Assembly: GCA_902618945.1 (NCBI GenBank)
Contig: CACNCK010000011.1
Coordinates: forward strand, 1-40,655
Direction of reading: 5' to 3'
Length of the DNA stretch: 40,655 nucleotides
DNA from: an uncultured SAR86 cluster bacterium
Lineage (GTDB): Bacteria > Pseudomonadota > Gammaproteobacteria > Magnimaribacterales > Magnimaribacteraceae
Part shown: positions 1 to 10,244 of the stretch, in pieces
How the letters are laid out: every line of letters begins with the position of its first letter
How positions within the stretch are numbered: position 1 is the first letter of the stretch
Position numbers and translations under genes: made by a program
Notes under the pieces: generated by a model
Databases searched by the model: none
What the model saw: the letters and a program-made list of their open reading frames with translations, nothing else
What the model was told of the DNA's origin: nothing

Positions 1-308
1 CCACCTGTAACAATATCAATATTAGGTGGAAAAATATTTTTCCTTTTATTATTTTTTACAAGGTCAACTATGCTGCCTTTAACAAAAATTTTATTTTTAT
101 TTAGATTGTTATGATTCCAAAAAATTTCTGCAGATTTTTTAATATCATTTGCAAAAACTGTTTCAAATTTTGTTTTAGGTAATTTAAAAAACTGTTTTTT
201 ATTTTTGCAATCAGTTAAAAACTCTTTATTTGTTTTGAACCCGCCCTGTATGCCGAGATCCATTCCGCCACATCCACTGAACAAAGAGAGGTGTCTAAAT
301 TTTTTCAC
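1..308 (-). CDS. DNA (cytosine-5-)-methyltransferase, N-terminal part (cut by window edge)
   Basis: The first 102 codons of a C5-cytosine DNA methyltransferase, which would transfer a methyl group from S-adenosylmethionine to cytosine in a specific DNA sequence. Motif I is clear near the N-terminus (LFSGCGGMDLG, residues 9-19, SAM binding). An acidic motif II region follows (VFANDIKKSA), then a motif III-like segment (GSIVDL). The reading frame leaves the window at DIVTGG, exactly where motif IV (GGPPCQ with the catalytic Cys) should follow, so the catalytic residue cannot be seen. The start is a GTG: an in-frame TAA lies 9 bases upstream, and the next Met would delete motif I. No clear ribosome binding site is visible. 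The family call is firm; sequence specificity and whether it is orphan or part of a restriction-modification pair are unknown. Confidence 0.87.
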   Translation of the reverse strand, partial: MKKFRHLSLFSGCGGMDLGIQGGFKTNKEFLTDCKNKKQFFKLPKTKFETVFANDIKKSAEIFWNHNNLNKNKIFVKGSIVDLVKNNKRKNIFPPNIDIVTG

Positions 309-504
309 GTTTGCTTATAATTCTCTGTTTTGTTCTATTCCACCGTAACTGAGTAGATTTGTTTGGTGCATTATTCTTACTTGTAATCATCTTCGAGAAT
401 TCCCTTTTTCGTCAAGGTTTAGTTTATAGTTTTTGAATAAAATTCTTCATCTAATTTTGTCAGCAAATATAATAATGATTATATTAGAAAGGATAGTCAG
501 GTTC
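309..504. other. Intergenic strip upstream of the methyltransferase
   Basis: This 196-bp AT-rich spacer lies between the methyltransferase start and the 172-aa gene. On the minus strand it has a short basic reading frame of 31 codons (390 down to 295, starting MITSKNNAPN) that overlaps the GTG start of the methyltransferase, and an AT-only inverted repeat at 466-485. The minus-strand frame just upstream (LTKLDEEFYSKTIN, stop, TLTKKGILEDDYK, stop) could be a decayed coding remnant, but this is weak. No firm gene call is made. Confidence 0.4.
466..485. repeat. Perfect AT-only inverted repeat (8-bp arms, 4-bp loop)
   Basis: The arms AATATAAT and ATTATATT are exact reverse complements around AATG. 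It lies between the stop of the 172-aa gene and the methyltransferase. It could be an operator, part of a promoter or a weak hairpin; with AT-only arms, chance in AT-rich DNA is also possible. Confidence 0.4.
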
Positions 505-1023
505 TCAGAATTGGTTTTCCGAGGGGTCTCTCCTGAAGTGATGACTTTTAAAGTGCCTATCCATAGATTCAATCAGTCTAAAAACTACATCATTTTTTGT
601 CAGTTCTAAAAGATACTTAAGAGCATCTTCTCTCTGGTTTTCTTTGTAAATTAATCTCAATGAATTCCAGATCTCAAGGATAATGAAGACCAGAATACTG
701 TTGTGCATACTTCTTGGTGTATCGGAGTTATAGGGTATGTTGCCTATTTTTCGAGTTTCAACCTCATCTAGCAAGTTTAAACTTTGACATAAATTTTCTA
801 TCATTTGTTGAAGCAATTTAGTATTTTTTACATTTCCTAATCCCCTGAAATATTCTCTTGTGCCAGTTTCCTCAGGGTTGATTTTTAGTTCTTTAACAAT
901 CGAGTCGAAAAGTCTTGTTCTAATTTCATTGCATCCGCAAGTTGAGCATCCACCTATTGCAAAAATACCAATGCAATAATTTTTTTTTAGGTGTTCTTCA
1001 TATATAACTGAAAGATAGTTCAT
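505..1023 (-). CDS. Hypothetical protein with an N-terminal Cys cluster
   Basis: A 172-aa protein that I do not recognise. A hydrophobic stretch near the N-terminus (NYCIGIFAIGG) leads into a cysteine cluster (C17, C26, C29, C31; CSTCGC), which could bind metal or form disulfides. The rest looks helical and charged, with a hydrophobic segment in the middle (ILVFIILEIW, about residues 109-118). It ends in a basic/His-rich tail (HFKSHHFRR). It lies 23 bases downstream of the MORN-like gene on the same strand, with a GAAGGA sequence upstream of its ATG, so it is probably cotranscribed with that gene. Its position between a MORN/GIY-YIG pair and a DNA methyltransferase suggests an accessory or defence role, but nothing in the sequence itself proves a function. 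Confidence 0.65.
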   Translation of the reverse strand: MNYLSVIYEEHLKKNYCIGIFAIGGCSTCGCNEIRTRLFDSIVKELKINPEETGTREYFRGLGNVKNTKLLQQMIENLCQSLNLLDEVETRKIGNIPYNSDTPRSMHNSILVFIILEIWNSLRLIYKENQREDALKYLLELTKNDVVFRLIESMDRHFKSHHFRRDPSENQF

Positions 1024-1046
1024 TCCGCAAATCCTTCTAAAACCTC

Positions 1047-1448
1047 TTAATCATCTTGTTTGAAAATATCTTCTGCGATTTCATTCCTGAATTCCTCAAA
1101 TAAGTCTTTAAAAAAACTTTTCTCATCAGATAATTCTTCGATGTGTACTTCTATTTTTGTTCCGTCCTCACGATAATAATCCCATGTGTCTCCATAGTAG
1201 TTAATTGAGAGTCTCTTTCCATCACTTCCATAATATCCAGATTGATCAATCTTTCCATTTGGGTAAATGAACTGCCAGAATCCACTCCTCACACCGTTCT
1301 TGAAGTTTCCCTTACCTCTTAAGTTTCCATCTTCATCTCTTATTTCTTCATATCCCTCTTTTGGCACTTCTTTTCCATTAACAGAAACAAAAATCATGTC
1401 CTCTTTTTTTGGTGAGGGGTTATTTAAAAACCTTTTATTTTTTTGCAA
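1047..1448 (-). CDS. MORN-repeat-like protein
   Basis: A protein of 133 aa if it starts at the TTG at 1448, or 116 aa if it starts at the internal ATG at 1397, which sits just after a GAGG sequence. The middle has MORN_2-type repeats (GNLRGKGNFKNGVRSGFW and YPNGKIDQSGYY), alternating Gly/Tyr/Asn-Gly turns that form a beta-hairpin ladder. An acidic helical tail follows (DLFEEFRNEIAEDIF). MORN_2 proteins occur widely as small bacterial accessory proteins, some beside toxins or secreted effectors, but the repeat alone does not fix a function. The TTG start would overlap the upstream GIY-YIG gene by 14 bases, which suggests translational coupling. No signal peptide is seen. The repeat assignment is by eye. 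Confidence 0.6.
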   Translation of the reverse strand: MQKNKRFLNNPSPKKEDMIFVSVNGKEVPKEGYEEIRDEDGNLRGKGNFKNGVRSGFWQFIYPNGKIDQSGYYGSDGKRLSINYYGDTWDYYREDGTKIEVHIEELSDEKSFFKDLFEEFRNEIAEDIFKQDD

Positions 1449-1929
1449 GATTGGTCACCTCTTTAATAAGATCTTCTTTTATTTCCCTTCTGTAATATTC
1501 CATATTTGACCAAATTTTGTATTCAGAAAACTTATCAGAAATTTTCTTTTCTATCTCATCATGATAATCATAATAAGACTCCTCTGGAACGAATTCCGTA
1601 GGGGAAATATGAAGATAGTTAACATGATGGTGTGGTTCGGTGCTTTCACATCCAAGGCACCTTCTTAAATAAACATTATCAAAACCCTTTTGTTTCCAAT
1701 ATTCCTCAGTTTTGGGTGGTTCTTTTTCCCTATAACCATAAGTGCTTCTATATTCTCCCATCCTTTTTTTTATGCTTTTACATTTACCAACTTTAATCAT
1801 TGTTTTGTCTACTAATTTATCCGACCATGGTCTTGGTTGATGATAGACCATTGGTTTTGCCATATTAAATGAAAGAACATAGATGCCCGAGCAATCAAGT
1901 TTAATCAGATTATCTAAATAATTAGACAT
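1435..1929 (-). CDS. GIY-YIG nuclease-like protein (T5orf172/MUG113-like)
   Basis: A 164-aa protein with the layout of a GIY-YIG endonuclease domain: GIY at residues 15-17, the second signature as IKVG at 45-48, the expected Arg after it (KKRMGEY, R56), and a late helix with a candidate metal-binding Glu (DEIEKKI, E127). The C-terminal pattern KFSEYKIWSNMEYYRREIKEDL resembles the T5orf172/MUG113 branch. A CxxC plus His cluster (C91, C94, H100-H102) sits in the middle insert and may bind zinc. Its ATG overlaps the stop of the small upstream gene as TAATG, so the two are coupled. It is presumably a DNA nuclease; it could be a restriction-type enzyme partnered with the nearby C5 methyltransferase, but this is inference. 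The domain call is by motif only. Confidence 0.62.
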   Translation of the reverse strand: MSNYLDNLIKLDCSGIYVLSFNMAKPMVYHQPRPWSDKLVDKTMIKVGKCKSIKKRMGEYRSTYGYREKEPPKTEEYWKQKGFDNVYLRRCLGCESTEPHHHVNYLHISPTEFVPEESYYDYHDEIEKKISDKFSEYKIWSNMEYYRREIKEDLIKEVTNLAKK

Positions 1930-2123
1930 TATTTGATTTTAAAATTTTTAATGAAGGTTGGGTAGATCTCATCTCTAAGTGCGATTCTTTTTTCTCTTTC
2001 TTTCATGCGTTTAAGGTTGGCATGAACTTTTGAGTTAGACCAGGTTTTCTTCGTGTGAGTTTTGATGCCAGATCGGTTAAGAAAATCAGATATTTTTCTG
2101 TATCCCATTTCCTCTTTGCGCAT
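1929..2123 (-). CDS. Small protein resembling the Recombinase/HTH segment of serine recombinases
   Basis: A 64-aa basic protein. The segment MGYRKISDFLNRSGIKTHT, then KTWSNSKVHANLKR, matches the style of the Recombinase domain that follows the catalytic domain in large serine recombinases (repetitive helix, loop, W-S-x-x-V, helix). No catalytic serine domain is present. The frame stays open about 100 bases upstream of the ATG, and reads a plausible basic helix (LKQLTKRQIAIHKLIQFM), but I find no ATG, GTG or TTG there. Either the ATG at 2123 is used, or this is the 3' remnant of a longer gene cut off near glmS. The stop overlaps the ATG of the GIY-YIG gene. A DNA-binding role is likely; mobility is unproven. 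Confidence 0.5.
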   Translation of the reverse strand: MRKEEMGYRKISDFLNRSGIKTHTKKTWSNSKVHANLKRMKEREKRIALRDEIYPTFIKNFKIK

Positions 2124-2209
2124 AAACTGAATGAGTTTATGAATAGCAATTTGTCTTTTGGTAAGTTGCTTGAGTGGTATTAATTTGTTGGTTCTATGAA
2201 CGATAGTAA

Positions 2210-2234
2210 ATTCGACGGTAATTTTCTGTCGAAT
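2210..2234 (-). terminator. Hairpin downstream of glmS, possible weak terminator
   Basis: The arms ATTCGAC and GTCGAAT pair perfectly around an 11-base centre, starting 18 bases beyond the glmS stop. On the minus strand only a short T tract follows, so it is a poor classical terminator. It occupies the position where the E. coli glmS terminator and the Tn7 insertion point lie. Confidence 0.35.
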
Positions 2235-2251
2235 AAATGCACCATTCGAGA

Positions 2252-2290
2252 TTACTCCACCGTTACAGACTTAGCGAGGTTTCGCGGCTG
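2252..2290 (-). other. glmS 3' end, attTn7-type target sequence
   Basis: The last codons of glmS encode QPRNLAKSVTVE followed by the stop, the conserved active-site tail recognised by TnsD of Tn7-family transposons, which insert about 25 bp past the stop. I see no Tn7 end sequences or tns genes in the window, so this marks a potential target rather than an insertion. Confidence 0.35.
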
Positions 2291-4087
2291 ATCAATGTCA
2301 GTACCTTTAAGGATGGCAACATGATAAGCAAGAAGCTGTAATGGTATCGAGTAAATTAGAGGAGCAATCAACTCTGGGACTTCAGGCAGTTCAATAAACT
2401 TAGTTATTGATTCATCTTCCTGATGAGCTGCAGAGTGTCCAAATACATATAGCTTTCCTCCTCGCGCTCTAACTTCTTCTAGGTTTGATTGAAGTTTTGC
2501 AAGTAAATCATCATTAGGAGCAACCGCGACGACAGGCATTTCTGAATCAACAAGAGCCAATGGTCCATGTTTTAATTCTCCTGCAGGATATGCTTCTGCA
2601 TGAATATAGGAAATTTCTTTAAGCTTTAATGCACCTTCCATAGCTACGGGGTAATGAATGCCTCTACCCAAAAAGAGAGCATGTTCCTTTTGATCAAAAT
2701 CTTCTGCCATTTCAATAATTTGATCTTCAAGCAACATTACCGAATCTAAAGAATCAGGTAGTGCTCTAAGTGAATTATTTATGGTATTTTCTGCAGCCGA
2801 GGATAGACCATGATGCCTTCCGAGAATTAAAGTTAACATCAATAAGCCAACGAGCTGAGTGGTAAAGGCTTTTGTTGAAGCAACACCTATTTCAGGGCCT
2901 GCTTTGGTTAAAAATACTAAATCAGATTCTCTCGCTAGAGAACTTGAAGGGACATTGCATATACCAAGGCGGGCTAAGTAGCCTGCATCTTTGGCGGCAC
3001 TTAAACAAGCAAGCGTATCGGCTGTCTCTCCGGACTGGGAAATGGTTATAAACAGGGTATTGGGTGCCACTACTTTATTTCTATATCTAAATTCACTTGC
3101 CACTTCTACGCTGCAGGGCAAACCGGCAAGACCTTCTAGCCAGTATTTAGCTACTGTTCCAGCATGGAAGCTAGTTCCACAAGCCACTATCTGAACGGCC
3201 TCAACATTTTTAAAAATATCAGGTGCACTAGGCCCAAATATTTCTTCTTGAACACCTGAATCAGTCAATTGTCCTTCTAATAAGCCTTTAATTTTTGATG
3301 GCTGCTCATTAATTTCTTTAAGCATGAAATGCCTATATTCGCCTTTATCAACCGTCTCACCTAAAGACTTGGCAACTACAACAGGTCTTACAACTTCAGT
3401 ATCATCCAGATCCCAGTAGCGAATTCCTTTAGATGTGATTTCAGCAAGATCGCCGTCTTCAAGAAATACAAATTTCTCTGCAAAGTCCGCTAAAGCAAGT
3501 TGATCGGAAGCTATAAAATTTTCTCCGTGACCCATACCGATAACCAAAGGGCTGCCTTTTCTGGCTGAAGCCAAAATTCCAGGTTCGTTCTCACAAACTG
3601 CACCTATTGCATAAGCTCCTCTGAGATCCTTCACTGCCGCCTTCAAGGCATCGATTAAAGTCACTTTATTCTCGCTCATTTTTGCATGAATCAGATGAGC
3701 AATAACTTCTGTGTCTGTTTCTGACTCAAAAACATAACCTAAAGCTTTAAGTGTGGTTCTAATTTCTTGATGATTTTCAATAATGCCGTTATGAATAACA
3801 AAAATATTATTATTTGAATGGTGCGGGTGAGCATTTGTCTCTGTTGGCAGGCCATGGGTTGCCCATCTGGTGTGGGCAATACCCGTATTACCATTCACAG
3901 GGTTTTCATCAATGGAGTTTTGGAGCTCTGCCACCTTACCAGTGCTTTTAAATACCTTTATTTGTTCTGTTTCATCAAAAATAGCAAGACCGGCTGAGTC
4001 ATATCCTCTATATTCCTGACGCAAAAGCCCTATCAGTAGTTTATCTACTGAGGGTTTGCTAGAAGCTACTCCGATTATCCCACACAT
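2252..4087 (-). CDS. glmS: Glutamine-fructose-6-phosphate aminotransferase (isomerizing)
   Basis: Makes glucosamine-6-phosphate from fructose-6-phosphate and glutamine, the first step of UDP-GlcNAc synthesis for peptidoglycan and LPS, in the cytoplasm. It is full length at 611 aa. The N-terminal glutaminase domain starts MCGIIGVA with the nucleophile Cys2. Two SIS sugar-isomerase domains follow (CGTSFHAG, SQSGETADT, STKAFTTQ). The C-terminal tail LAKSVTVE is the conserved end that closes the active site. The ATG lies 3 bases after glmU, so the two consecutive pathway genes are surely cotranscribed, downstream of the atp operon as in many gammaproteobacteria. No glmS ribozyme is visible, which fits a Gram-negative. 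Accessory genes begin directly after its stop. Confidence 0.97.
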   Translation of the reverse strand: MCGIIGVASSKPSVDKLLIGLLRQEYRGYDSAGLAIFDETEQIKVFKSTGKVAELQNSIDENPVNGNTGIAHTRWATHGLPTETNAHPHHSNNNIFVIHNGIIENHQEIRTTLKALGYVFESETDTEVIAHLIHAKMSENKVTLIDALKAAVKDLRGAYAIGAVCENEPGILASARKGSPLVIGMGHGENFIASDQLALADFAEKFVFLEDGDLAEITSKGIRYWDLDDTEVVRPVVVAKSLGETVDKGEYRHFMLKEINEQPSKIKGLLEGQLTDSGVQEEIFGPSAPDIFKNVEAVQIVACGTSFHAGTVAKYWLEGLAGLPCSVEVASEFRYRNKVVAPNTLFITISQSGETADTLACLSAAKDAGYLARLGICNVPSSSLARESDLVFLTKAGPEIGVASTKAFTTQLVGLLMLTLILGRHHGLSSAAENTINNSLRALPDSLDSVMLLEDQIIEMAEDFDQKEHALFLGRGIHYPVAMEGALKLKEISYIHAEAYPAGELKHGPLALVDSEMPVVAVAPNDDLLAKLQSNLEEVRARGGKLYVFGHSAAHQEDESITKFIELPEVPELIAPLIYSIPLQLLAYHVAILKGTDIDQPRNLAKSVTVE

Positions 4088-4090
4088 AAT

Positions 4091-5437
4091 TTATTTCTTC
4101 TTATTCAGATTAACTTGTTTGCCTCTTGCAACAGCAAGTTTACCCTTTGGAACGTCCTTAGTAATAACTGATCCGGCTCCAGTGTAAGAGTTTTCTCCAA
4201 GAGCCAAGGGCGCAACAAGTGAGCTATTAGAGCCTATAAATGTTCCATCTGCAATGATGGTTTTATGTTTATTTTTTCCATCATAGTTACAGGTTATAGT
4301 CCCAGCACCTACATTTACTTTAGTGCCTAGTCTTGCATCACCTAAATAAGTAAGGTGTTTGGCCTTAGAGTTTTTGCCAATATTACTTCTATTAGACTCA
4401 ACAAAATTACCAAGTTCGGCTCCTTCTGTTAGCTCGCTACCTCCTCTGATTCTTGCAAAAGGCCCAATCTTGCAATTTTTTCCAATTACACTGTCTTCCA
4501 ATACAGTATTTGCATAAACAATAGTGTTATCTTTGATAGTGCAGTTAGAAATGTAGCAATTAGGTCCTATGTGAACATTCTTGCCCAAGACATTGTTGCC
4601 CTCAAAAACATTATTGATATCTATAAAAGAGTTTTGCCCTATCTTGATATCTCCCCTGATGTCTATCCTTGAAGTGTCGGCAATAGTCACCCCGCTTTTA
4701 AGCAAATCTTCAGCTAATTTCTTCTGATAAGCTCTTTCAAGCTCATGCAACTCCTTTTTGTCATTAGCGCCACCAACTTCATAAGGGTCGCATAAAGTAG
4801 CCACAACATCTATTGAATGATTATTGGAAATTTCAACCAGATCAGTCAGATAATATTCTTTCGCTACATTATTGTTTTTGATTTTAGAAATAAATTGTTG
4901 AAGCAGGTTGGCTTTGATCGCTAGGATGCCAGAATTAACTTCTCTTAATTCTTTTTCCGCTGATGACGCATCTTTGTGCTCTATAATTTTTTGAACATTT
5001 TTCTTAGAGCTGCGGATAATTCTGCCATAACCCGTGGGGTCTTCCTTTATAAAGGTCAATAACGAAAGTTTTCCTGTTGATGCAGATTTTATAAGCCTGT
5101 TTAATGTATTCTTTTTTACCAGGGGAACGTCGCCGTAAAGGATTACAGCTACAGAATTCTTTCTGATATTGGGCAGTGCTTGCTTAACAGCATGAGCTGT
5201 TCCTAGCTGATTTTTTTGTTTTACAAAGCGAAGTTTTTTTTGAGAAACGAGATCTGTTTCAACCTCGTTGGCTTTATAACCAACCACAATTGAAGTATTA
5301 GAGTTCTGGAATGAATCGACCGTATCGATAAGGTGCTGGATCATGGGCTTGCCTGCTAAACTCGCAAGCACTTTGGGAGAATCTCCCCCCATCCTTGTGC
5401 CTTTACCGGCAGCTAAAATTATAAAATCTATATTCAT
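4091..5437 (-). CDS. glmU: Bifunctional GlcNAc-1-phosphate uridyltransferase / glucosamine-1-phosphate acetyltransferase
   Basis: Catalyses the last two steps to UDP-GlcNAc: acetylation of glucosamine-1-phosphate, then uridylyl transfer. It has 448 aa, close to the usual 456. The N-terminal nucleotidyltransferase domain opens with LAAGKGTRM (residues 7-15) and carries YGDVPL. The C-terminal half is a left-handed beta helix of hexapeptide repeats (for example IGPNCYISNCTIKDNTIV), with the acetyltransferase motif GAGTITCNYDG. The start is 43 bases after the atpC stop with no obvious promoter, so read-through from the ATP synthase operon is likely. It is followed by glmS with a 3-base gap. Confidence 0.96.
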   Translation of the reverse strand: MNIDFIILAAGKGTRMGGDSPKVLASLAGKPMIQHLIDTVDSFQNSNTSIVVGYKANEVETDLVSQKKLRFVKQKNQLGTAHAVKQALPNIRKNSVAVILYGDVPLVKKNTLNRLIKSASTGKLSLLTFIKEDPTGYGRIIRSSKKNVQKIIEHKDASSAEKELREVNSGILAIKANLLQQFISKIKNNNVAKEYYLTDLVEISNNHSIDVVATLCDPYEVGGANDKKELHELERAYQKKLAEDLLKSGVTIADTSRIDIRGDIKIGQNSFIDINNVFEGNNVLGKNVHIGPNCYISNCTIKDNTIVYANTVLEDSVIGKNCKIGPFARIRGGSELTEGAELGNFVESNRSNIGKNSKAKHLTYLGDARLGTKVNVGAGTITCNYDGKNKHKTIIADGTFIGSNSSLVAPLALGENSYTGAGSVITKDVPKGKLAVARGKQVNLNKKK

Positions 5438-5480
5438 TGGAACAATGGCGCATTCGCCCCAAGTGGTTTTTCTTATTTAA

Positions 5481-5894
5481 CTACTTCTTGCGCAGTTTCT
5501 GCAAGGCTTTTAACCTGGCAGCTGCCTCAGCTAGTTGTGCTGATGCCATGGAATAATCCATTTCTGATTTTTGATCTTCCAGTTCTCTTTCTGCTAATTC
5601 TTTTGCTCTTTCAGCGGCTGCTGAGTCTATGTCATCAGCTCTCTCGGCAACATCTGTTAAAAGGGTTACCTCTCCAGGCTGCACTTCTAGGAATCCTCCT
5701 GAAGCAAAAAATATCTCTTCTTCTCCTCCCTCCAACACTAGCTTAACAGGACCGGGCTTTAGGTTTGTTAGAAGCGGAGCATGTCTCGGTGTAATAGCAA
5801 TTTCACCAGCACCACCTTCAGCACTCAAGAGTTCGACGGGTCCAGAGAAAAGCTCTCCTTCTGGGCTAACTATATTGCACTGAATAGTTGACAT
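5481..5894 (-). CDS. atpC: F1Fo ATP synthase subunit epsilon
   Basis: Central-stalk subunit of the F1 sector, regulating ATPase activity through its mobile C-terminal helices. At 137 aa it is of normal size. The N-terminal beta sandwich is recognisable (CNIVSPEGELFSG, then ITPRHAPLL and ASGGFLEVQPGEVTLL), followed by an Ala/Glu/Lys-rich two-helix tail (ERAKELAERELEDQ to the end). It is the last gene of the atp operon, 3 bases after atpD, and precedes glmU. Confidence 0.95.
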   Translation of the reverse strand: MSTIQCNIVSPEGELFSGPVELLSAEGGAGEIAITPRHAPLLTNLKPGPVKLVLEGGEEEIFFASGGFLEVQPGEVTLLTDVAERADDIDSAAAERAKELAERELEDQKSEMDYSMASAQLAEAAARLKALQKLRKK

Positions 5895-5897
5895 AGA

Positions 5898-8176
<2,279 letters not shown>

Positions 8177-8182
8177 TCATCC

Positions 8183-9727
8183 CTACCAGGTTTGTGTTTC
8201 CATGAATTTGTCTAAGGCTTCTTTAAATGCGTTTTGGATATCATCTCCGTATTCTCCGGTCTCAGATACCTTGTCCATAAGATCTTTATGCTCGGAATTC
8301 ATATAGGCTATCAAGCTCTTTTCAAAGTCTTTGATTTTTTCGACCTCAACCTGCCTAAGATACCCTTCATTGGCCGTGTAAAGCATTAGGCCCATTTCAG
8401 CTACAGACATTGGTGAGAACTGATCTTGTTTCGTCAGTTCTGTAACCCTTACACCGTGCTCTAATTGCTCTTTGGATGCCTCGTCAAGATCTGAAGCAAA
8501 TTGGGCAAAGGCCTCTAACTCTCTATATTGAGCAAGGGCTGTTTTAATTCCTCCACCAAGCTTTTTAATTATTGGAACCTGAGCGGCACCACCTACCCTT
8601 GAAACTGAAATACCAGGATCCATGGCTGGCTTTAATCCTGAACTAAATAAAGAGGACTCGAGGAAAATTTGTCCATCGGTTATAGAAATTACGTTCGTAG
8701 GAACAAACGCCGAAACGTCTCCAGCCTGAGTTTCGATGATTGGTAGTGCAGTCAGTGAGCCGGTTTTTCCCTTCACCTCACCATTTGTGTGACTCTCAAC
8801 ATATTCCTCGTTCACTCTTGCAGCTCTTTCTAGTAATCTTGAGTGAAGGTAGAAAACGTCACCGGGATAAGCCTCCCTTCCGGGCGGTCTTCTTAGCAAA
8901 AGAGACATCTGTCTATATGCAACAGCTTGCTTAGAAAGGTCATCGTAGATAATCAGAGCATCCTCACCCCTATCTCTGAAATACTCGCCCATGGAACAGG
9001 CTGCAAAAGGGGCAATATATTGCATTGGTGCTGGGTCAGCCGCCGCAGCCACTACAACAATTGTGTTTTCCATTGCACCATACTGCTCAAGAGTTCTAAC
9101 TACCTGAGCAATTGAAGATTGCTTTTGACCTATTGCTACGTATATGCACTTAACGCCAGTGTCTTTTTGATTGATTATTGCATCAATGGCGATAGCGGTT
9201 TTGCCGGTCTGTCTGTCTCCAATGATCAATTCACGCTGACCTCTTCCAATTGGAACCATGCTATCAACGGCCTTTATACCCAGTTGCACCGGTTGATCTA
9301 CAGACTTTCTTGAAATAACTCCAGGAGCGACTTTCTCTACTGGGGCAGTTTGATTTGTCTGCACTTCGCCTTTACCATCAATTGGATTACCTAGTGCGTC
9401 CACAACCCTTCCCATAAGAGCATCTCCAACGGGGACCTCTAAAATTCTTCCAGTACACTTAGCAGAGCCGCCTTCTGCCAGTAACTTATAATCTCCCAAG
9501 ATAACAGCCCCAACAGAGTCAACCTCTAAATTAAGCGCCATTCCCATGACGCCATGCTCAAACTCTATAAGCTCACCATTCATGACTTCACCAAGACCGT
9601 ATATTCTTGCAATACCGTCTGCAAGGAAAACGATTGTGCCTTCATTGCTAGGTGTGGATACGGTATCGAGAGCATCAATTTTCTGCTTGATGACCTGACT
9701 AATTTCTGATGGGTTTAATTCTTCCAT
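8183..9727 (-). CDS. atpA: F1Fo ATP synthase subunit alpha
   Basis: Non-catalytic nucleotide-binding subunit of F1. It has 514 aa, standard length. The N-terminal region begins [17 protein letters not shown]. The P-loop GDRQTGKT is at residues 170-177. The ATP synthase alpha/beta signature region is present ([22 protein letters not shown]) together with the conserved arginine-finger region ([12 protein letters not shown]). It lies 4 bases after atpH in the canonical order. Confidence 0.98.
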
Positions 9728-9731
9728 TTTT

Positions 9732-10244
9732 TTATTTGATTTGATTTCTTAATTTTTCAAGCTTTCCCTTAATGCTGTAATCTGTAACTTCGTCACCGCA
9801 TTTGATAGAAAAACCACCTATTAAACTTTTATCTACTACTTGTTCCACTGTTAATGAATCTCCATATCTTCCTTTTAGAGAGTTTGTAACTTTTTTTAAT
9901 TGCTCATCTGTCAACTCAAACGCAGATGTAATGAAAACCTCGCTAGAGCCTTGTGTTCCCGATAACAACTTTCTGTATTCTTTGGAGATGTGTGGAAGAA
10001 GTGAAATTCTTTTGGACTCGCCTAACACTTTAATGAAGTTGTTGGTTTTGCTTTCAATTTGGCCTTCAAATAAAGAGAGGAACGCTTCAGTCTTTTCCTT
10101 ATAAGCAAGCTTAGGAGAATCTATCAGCTGTTGTACTTCAGGTGTCTCTAGAGCAAGCTCAAGCTGCTCAAGATCTTTTTCCCACCCTTTAGAGTGGTCA
10201 TAGATCGCTTGGGCGTATGGTCTTGCTATGGTTTCGAAATTCAA
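9732..10244 (-). CDS. atpH: F1Fo ATP synthase subunit delta
   Basis: Peripheral-stalk subunit joining the b subunits to the top of F1. It has 170 aa, slightly shorter than the 177 of E. coli. The N-terminal start [15 protein letters not shown] is typical of the delta/OSCP family. The C-terminal domain has the conserved region ending [22 protein letters not shown], close to the family pattern D-x-x-L-I-G-G. It is separated from atpF by 2 bases. Confidence 0.95.

Follow-up and report, generated by a model that had tools for sequence, protein, structure and literature searches.

Units stacked behind glmS in SAR86 bacteria and their probable movement by a large serine recombinase

The stretch of DNA analyzed for this report (the "window") comprises 40,655 nucleotides at the end of a contig from an uncultured SAR86 cluster bacterium, whose genome comes to 1.37 Mb in 30 contigs. 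Its first 2,123 nucleotides carry five genes on one strand that a preliminary description had read as one candidate restriction or defence cassette: an 'HTH' (helix-turn-helix) gene, genes for a GIY-YIG protein, a MORN protein and a Cys-rich protein of 172 amino acids (aa), and the start of a C5 methyltransferase gene. These five open reading frames (ORFs) and their close junctions were confirmed, with TAATG between the HTH and GIY-YIG genes, 14 bases shared by the GIY-YIG and MORN genes and 23 bases between the MORN gene and the 172-aa ORF. Comparisons with related genomes suggest a different meaning for them, namely that a tandem array of mobile units, which would be moved by a large serine recombinase (LSR), very probably has its glmS end in the window. 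The supposed cassette starts where glmS stops, and a near-copy of the glmS 3' end (core 2, Table 1) splits it between the 172-aa gene and the methyltransferase gene. SAR86 ranks with the most abundant groups of bacteria in surface seawater (PMC11582366), and its genomes are small.

A repeated core downstream of glmS

The last 18 bases of glmS, TCNGTNACNGTNGARTAR, which we refer to as the core, recur downstream of the gene, between other genes and on the glmS strand. The core pattern was found in 153 of the 203 genomes of the order to which the window genome belongs, and 105 of the 203 have at least two cores on one strand (by hand count, and not necessarily on one contig). A control with the reversed pattern gave 13 matches in the same 203 genomes, never two per genome. 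Outside the order, core repeats are close to background, with two or more cores on one strand in 5 of 365 genomes from a class-wide draw versus 2 of 365 for the reversed control (both counted by hand). A locus from a 1-Mb genome of another order (L176, G550) has cores at 1430 and 2410, the second of them 980 bp behind glmS, without convincing examples of the arms described below.

The detailed comparisons rest on 80 loci, namely the window, 39 stretches from behind glmS and a further 40 chosen for the most part on account of their several cores; a duplicate locus (L066) was dropped. They contain 292 cores at one mismatch or less, none of which lies on the opposite strand; when two mismatches are allowed a few reverse-strand matches, at least four, appear. 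Two or more cores are present in 75 of the 80 loci. The gene glmS itself is kept in 38 of 40 fetched stretches, and in all 38 the sequence soon after its stop codon is unrelated among loci; the content of this region differs even between genomes of one genus with 99-100% identity in glmS. Just past the last core of one locus (L056) there is a 3,194-aa ORF (480-10065 in oriented coordinates, behind glmS) whose product looks like a giant surface-type protein.

Arms of the units and the point of exchange

The cores delimit 210 units with a median length of 634 bp, and in 179 of these the longest ORF lies on the glmS strand, its start codon being no more than 60 nt from the core in 95 of the 179. 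The sequences that adjoin the cores at the two ends of a unit (its arms) match each other in inverted orientation with a mean score of 10.5, compared with 6.7 for the two arms that meet across a junction (134 junctions) and 6.5 for random pairs. The 99% level of the random pairs is exceeded by 40 of the 210 units and by 2 of the 134 junctions. For the 126 units with distinct arms, the fraction of the 18 arm positions that is paired in a fixed register is 0.566, versus 0.356 upon permutation (maximum 0.393 in 2000), and 12 or more of the 18 are paired in 58 of these units where 7.4 would be expected. Since the pairing occurs within units and not across junctions, the arms belong to the unit. 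The two arms of the window's first unit conform to this pattern, carrying TGGTGCATT in inverted orientation and in the common register. When the axis of symmetry was scanned over 29 positions, pairing reached 0.574 exactly between core positions 7 and 8, a nearly invariant AC, and did not exceed 0.326 elsewhere.

To map the crossover, units present in more than one array served as tags, in 34 and 27 arm clusters. Cores that share a downstream unit agree with each other at the wobble positions 9, 12, 15 and 18, and cores that share an upstream unit agree at positions 3 and 6, to an extent that none of 2000 shuffles reached at any of these positions. Agreement on the wrong side is weak, being reached by 21 to 1367 of the 2000 shuffles. 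Because positions 3 and 6 track the upstream unit and positions 9 to 18 the downstream unit, the exchange is placed between positions 6 and 9, at the AC and on the axis of symmetry. The cores are thus hybrids of two units, and duplication of a target is rejected for this reason; an overlap of 6-8 bp is disfavoured since it would mix positions 6 and 9. A crossover at a dinucleotide on the dyad axis of the attachment (att) site is characteristic of LSRs, and judged from these alignments the geometry of core and arms is of the large-serine-integrase type.

Candidate recombinases

The catalytic domain of serine recombinases (PF00239) was found in 6 of the 203 genomes, with five matches above the cut-off, and in none of the other 197, the window genome included. 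One of the six belongs to a member of the same order, SAR86 bacterium AH-326-D05 (G169), in which the gene lies within a 6,047-bp unit that immediately follows glmS and is bounded by two perfect cores, its arms matching each other. The predicted protein of 551 aa matches the Resolvase (E=6e-24) and Recombinase (E=1e-11) domains and, below the cut-off, the Zn-ribbon domain (E=2.8e-4), and its relatives of solved structure are the recombinases of SPbeta (YokA), TP901-1 and phiC31. Its matches in phages are less than 60% identical over at most part of the protein, and neither the exact att string nor close relatives of this LSR were found in viral contigs. The unit also encodes a Rep-like protein (REP_ORF2-G2P, E=1.6e-6). 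The second unit behind glmS in this genome encodes (L171, 4633-4989) an endonuclease VII-like protein with a score just below the cut-off (E=7.4e-5), a further small nuclease carried as cargo.

No array surrounds the serine recombinase gene in the other five genomes. We considered the LSRs of two of these (G041 and G044) as array enzymes and rejected them, as both lie at a distance from glmS and are not surrounded by an array. Both (L169, 6636-8213; L170, 322-1881), at 519-525 aa, end in a peptide resembling GGIEPPTS or RGIEPRTP, which we take to be as in integrases that read into tRNA genes; perhaps they represent a second family of LSR elements in SAR86.

A gene that appears to be split by an attachment site

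The 'HTH' gene at the glmS end of the window's first unit matches the 'Recombinase' domain of large serine recombinases (Pfam PF07508) with 21.5-22.4 bits at a cut-off of 21.1. The preliminary description had placed it in the restriction cassette; it proves to be part of a mobile unit's end, with an LSR-type DNA-binding domain, and is not evidently a regulator of a restriction system. A structure model of good quality was obtained (predicted local distance difference test, pLDDT, 85.8), for which a fold search gave no match at E<=0.001, the Bxb1 serine recombinase appearing only among the insignificant matches. Relatives of the gene occur in 18 of the 203 genomes, and 12 of the 19 matches, counting that of the window, immediately follow glmS. 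Identity to the four closest relatives is 73-80%, versus about 50-57% for glmS, and a fifth close one (G120) lies about 1.4 kb from glmS.

The reading frame of this gene is open across the glmS stop codon, contains no ATG, GTG or TTG from the glmS end (about position 2270) up to the ATG at 2123, and is conserved upstream of that ATG, where the structure model places a strand at residues 12-17. When the two ends of the unit are joined in silico, an in-frame start arises in the right arm, which in the window is an ATG (Table 1). A joined-end ORF that extends at least 40 codons past the junction is found for 11 of 14 HTH units (8 of them with ATG) versus 9 of 173 other units, in a comparison that was not conditioned on frame and in which related HTH units are not independent. 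The HTH unit of G120, which is not the first in its array and therefore lies outside the 11 of 14, has TTG as its joined-end start. Two HTH units (L067, L072) have no joined-end start, and two others (L060, L090) possess an in-frame TTG, in the core or left arm, from which translation could begin without circularization. These frames suggest that the HTH protein might be made mainly from a circular form of the unit. Should this be the case, a gene split by its own attachment site and expressed from the circle alone would offer an elegant way to control reinsertion.

A proposed mechanism and the evidence that weighs against it

The observations can be accommodated by the following scheme. A unit might exist as a circle with a palindromic attachment site, composed of right arm, core and left arm, and a large serine recombinase would cut the central AC of the circle's core as well as its counterpart within the final glmS codons and join the two. 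The incoming unit would supply its own copy of these codons (V-E-stop) and so leave the gene intact, and the displaced half-site would mark the distal junction. Later units would insert at glmS and push older ones outward, which would give mostly co-oriented arrays. Units without a recombinase, i.e. most of them, would presumably be moved in trans, with at least one autonomous unit, that of AH-326-D05, encoding a recombinase and a Rep-like protein. The first unit of the window would carry a gene for an LSR-type DNA-binding domain whose start codon is regained only in the circle.

Several observations weigh against this scheme. No circle or excision was seen among the sequences compared, and a serine recombinase lies inside a glmS array in only 1 of the 203 genomes, which are often incomplete. 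The arms fall into several sequence classes, those of passive units including AACAGnGAATTA and TGGTGCATT, and this variety is perhaps beyond recognition by one recombinase; moreover, fewer than 12 of the 18 arm positions are paired in 68 of the 126 units with distinct arms. Some wrong-side agreement of core positions was reached by few shuffles (23 of 2000 for position 9 and the upstream unit, 21 of 2000 for position 15, 48 of 2000 for position 6 and the downstream unit) and is probably due to inherited junctions. Finally, the half-core TCNGTN, which moves together with a unit's right end, should never encode GlmS and keeps a codon-like wobble pattern all the same. The pattern search itself favours such codon-like sites.

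Beyond the window itself, we consider it rather probable that the SAR86 order has, in these arrays, a gene-capture platform analogous to the integron and based on a serine integrase. Its cassettes, tiny and for the most part devoid of a recombinase, would stack behind glmS, be set in motion in trans by rare autonomous elements and pass between families. Some cassettes would encode an att-binding protein whose gene is complete only in the circle, which would favour reinsertion. If so, the array would explain the gain and loss of restriction systems, nucleases and metabolic genes in these small genomes as well as contig breaks behind glmS in metagenome-assembled genomes, such as the one seen here, and a serine-recombinase route would be added to integron-like gene capture. 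The arrays would also supply a natural set of att sites together with a candidate enzyme. No description of a glmS array in SAR86 was found in the literature searched, whose scope did not extend to subscription papers and preprints, and PMC11582366 makes no mention of integrase, recombinase, glmS, mobile or hypervariable.

Sharing of units and their cargo

Arrays of different families share units. Thirty-four such pairs were found that match over at least 75% of their length, with up to 99.8% identity over 449 nt (glmS, 65.7%), and for all 20 pairs in which glmS was available the identity of the unit is more than 5 points above that of glmS. The related HTH units of G136 and G132 both carry an HNH protein and only the former has the GIY-YIG and MORN genes, which indicates that the cargo behind the HTH gene is exchangeable. 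Among 150 representative array proteins, the Pfam families counted (from the 25 commonest of 114) include HNH (5), HSDR_N_2 (3) and N6_Mtase, N6_N4_Mtase, ResIII, MrcB_N and NucS_C (2 each), and PADLOC detected methyltransferases and type IV enzymes. Individual arrays have a type I HsdR-like gene with a fused MS-like gene (G018), a type III-like pair (G086) or an MrcB_N-nuclease (G004), and there is metabolic cargo as well, for example aldo/keto reductases.

The proteins of the window itself have modest profile support. The identities proposed for three of them in the preliminary description were recovered as matches with Pfam scores below the curated cut-offs: the methyltransferase fragment matches the C5 methylase family (E=6e-4; 19.8 bits, cut-off 22) and the PADLOC profile MTase_II (E=4.5e-14), the GIY-YIG protein matches T5orf172 (E=0.0025; 18.7 bits, cut-off 20) and shares the GIY-YIG-like motif spacing of that family, and the MORN protein has one MORN_2 repeat (E=1.2e-4; 22.3 bits, cut-off 29.6). 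The 172-aa protein has no match in Pfam, PADLOC or NCBIfam and a single weak one in PHROG (E=0.064). A structural check of the GIY-YIG catalytic residues had been proposed; the model reached a mean pLDDT of only 51.7 and was not used, and a sequence search gave no match in the PDB. The residues G15, Y17, K46-V47-G48, R56 and E127 are invariant in three relatives and were assigned to the GIY-YIG motif by eye. A direct search for the GIY-YIG gene matched 2 of 61 relatives, one being the window's own genome and the other giving a weak match (40% over 58 residues), and there were none in viral contigs.

The GIY-YIG and MORN genes occur together in a glmS-adjacent unit in two other genomes (G136 and G140), the former with the same 14-base overlap, and such an overlapping pair was met only in these glmS-array units. 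This part of the original grouping is supported; a tblastn search of the other 79 array loci (E<=1e-3) gave no relative of the methyltransferase fragment or of the 172-aa protein. Given the restriction-type cargo of other arrays, a defence role for the first unit is plausible, and the pair might, as a tentative assignment from sequence, represent a nuclease-based defence or toxin module. A narrower proposal is that it is a toxin-antitoxin-like pair, in which a MORN_2 protein neutralises a nuclease and which mainly stabilises the unit and does not act against phages. The conserved overlap and the joint occurrence in three genomes would fit, as would the annotation of MORN_2 proteins of the YwqK type as antitoxins. 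MORN_2 proteins are also present in arrays without a GIY-YIG relative and the GIY-YIG match is weak, so that we regard this proposal as somewhat unlikely.

Alternative explanations for the arrays

A tyrosine recombinase, either the host XerC/XerD or an integron-type integrase, could in principle move the units, with the glmS end taking the place of dif or attI. All of the 20 genomes checked encode at least one tyrosine recombinase of XerC/D size, and the arrays are integron-like in their small units and in the strand of their longest ORFs. This explanation is nevertheless improbable, since positions 6 and 9, only 3 bp apart astride the AC, track opposite units and are seldom mixed; an exchange of about 2 bp fits between them, one of 6-8 bp does not. 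In addition, arms do not pair across junctions in the manner of attC, and integrase matches (PF00589) lie in the array in none of 18 of the 20 genomes, those of G155 and G187 not having been placed.

That the five genes form one restriction or defence cassette is very unlikely, although their junctions are short or overlapping and restriction-type cargo is common in these arrays. The HTH, GIY-YIG, MORN and 172-aa genes do share one mobile unit; the methyltransferase gene belongs to a different one, behind core 2, and relatives of neither its fragment nor the 172-aa protein appear in the 79 other loci. We therefore rejected the single cassette on the ground that a core copy with arms separates the methyltransferase from the remaining genes. 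The suggested analogy to Eco29kI, a GIY-YIG endonuclease paired with a C5 methylase, fails for the same reason; restriction and methylation genes are carried by other arrays of this kind.

A Tn7-like or casposon-like transposon that recognizes the glmS 3' end, which is the classical attTn7 region, and duplicates its target would account for units with terminal inverted repeats and is the least probable explanation of all, because the halves of each core belong to different units, which makes the cores hybrids and not duplicates; the absence of TniQ from all 203 genomes is a weak argument, as control genomes also gave no match. Integron attC sites and a target-duplicating transposon were both rejected, on the grounds of arm pairing and hybrid cores.

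Layout of the window

The features of the window are listed in Table 1. Since core 2 and the arm AACAAAACAGAGAATTA stand before the methyltransferase gene, this gene opens a second unit. The other side of the array might be found on a contig of the same genome (C3) that ends in four further cores followed by the flank genes of a sister genome (G005) at 97.7-100% identity, and we infer that the window's contig (C11) adjoins C3. The sister genome has a different set of units beside its own glmS. A second C5 methyltransferase of the window genome, on another contig (G000:C6:41776-42648), has a frame of 323 aa and matches PF00145 with E=1e-64.

Table 1. Features at the glmS-proximal end of the predicted array
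Feature	Position	Strand	Remarks
glmS, 611 aa	2252..4087	-	Last codons are the putative integration target; ORF list
Core 1, TCTGTAACGGTGGAGTAA, glmS 3' end	2252..2269	-	Central AC at 2262-2263
Left arm of unit 1, contains TGGTGCATT (inverted copy in right arm)	2231..2251	-	
Unit 1, 1,917 bp between its two crossover points	346..2262	-	HTH, GIY-YIG, MORN and 172-aa genes
'HTH' gene from first ATG, PF07508-like	1929..2123	-	Profile and conservation
GIY-YIG (T5orf172-like) protein, 164 aa	1435..1929	-	ORF and profile
MORN_2 repeat protein, 133 aa, TTG start	1047..1448	-	ORF and profile
172-aa protein, family not found	505..1023	-	ORF and profile searches
Right arm of unit 1, includes ATG at 369-371	353..376	-	
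Core 2, TCAGTTACGGTGGAATAG, unit 1/unit 2 boundary	335..352	-	Central AC at 345-346
Left arm of unit 2, AACAAAACAGAGAATTA	313..334	-	
C5 cytosine methyltransferase N-terminus, 102 aa, GTG start	3..308	-	First gene of unit 2; truncated by contig end

Relationship to known systems

The 3' end of glmS is a safe site for insertion in the case of Tn7 at attTn7, as it appears to be for the SAR86 arrays. The latter differ from Tn7 in that the crossover lies inside the last codons of glmS, the cores are hybrid and no transposon genes were seen in the window; duplication of the target site, as expected for a Tn7-like element, was not observed. A unit that combines a GIY-YIG endonuclease with a C5 methyltransferase, as in Eco29kI, was not found here either. 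The arrays of integrons are hypervariable, consist of small and mostly co-oriented units at a single anchor and have individual units in common between distant hosts, and the glmS arrays are alike in all of these respects. They depart from integrons in that the arms are a property of the unit rather than of the junction, pairing across junctions is about that of random pairs, the crossover lies on the dyad axis and no tyrosine integrase was found beside the array in the 18 placed genomes.

The serine integrases of phages act at pseudo-palindromic attP sites with half-sites of about 25 bp around a central dinucleotide (PMC3783163), and the arrays share with the A118 and phiC31 types of this group the attP geometry and, in the AH-326-D05 unit, a predicted recombinase with Recombinase and, below the cut-off, zinc domains. 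The attP-like sites of the arrays differ from those of the phages by being carried on passive gene units that are stacked in tandem. The cassette chromosome elements SCC and ECC are inserted by large serine recombinases (Ccr) at the 3' end of rlmH, with repeats of about 50 bp that include inverted repeats (PMC6222049). The glmS arrays resemble them in a candidate LSR (found in one array), a conserved gene that harbours attB in its 3' region, direct as well as inverted repeats, the possibility of several att copies and variable cargo. The ECC elements described in that source are 21-78 kb in size and carry ccrAB, whereas the SAR86 units are mostly smaller than 6 kb, have glmS and not rlmH as their target and, one case excepted, show no ccr or other serine recombinase gene. 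The glmS arrays thus belong to neither SCC/ECC nor the integrons as these are defined; they resemble the former in their proposed mechanism and the cassette array of an integron in their architecture.

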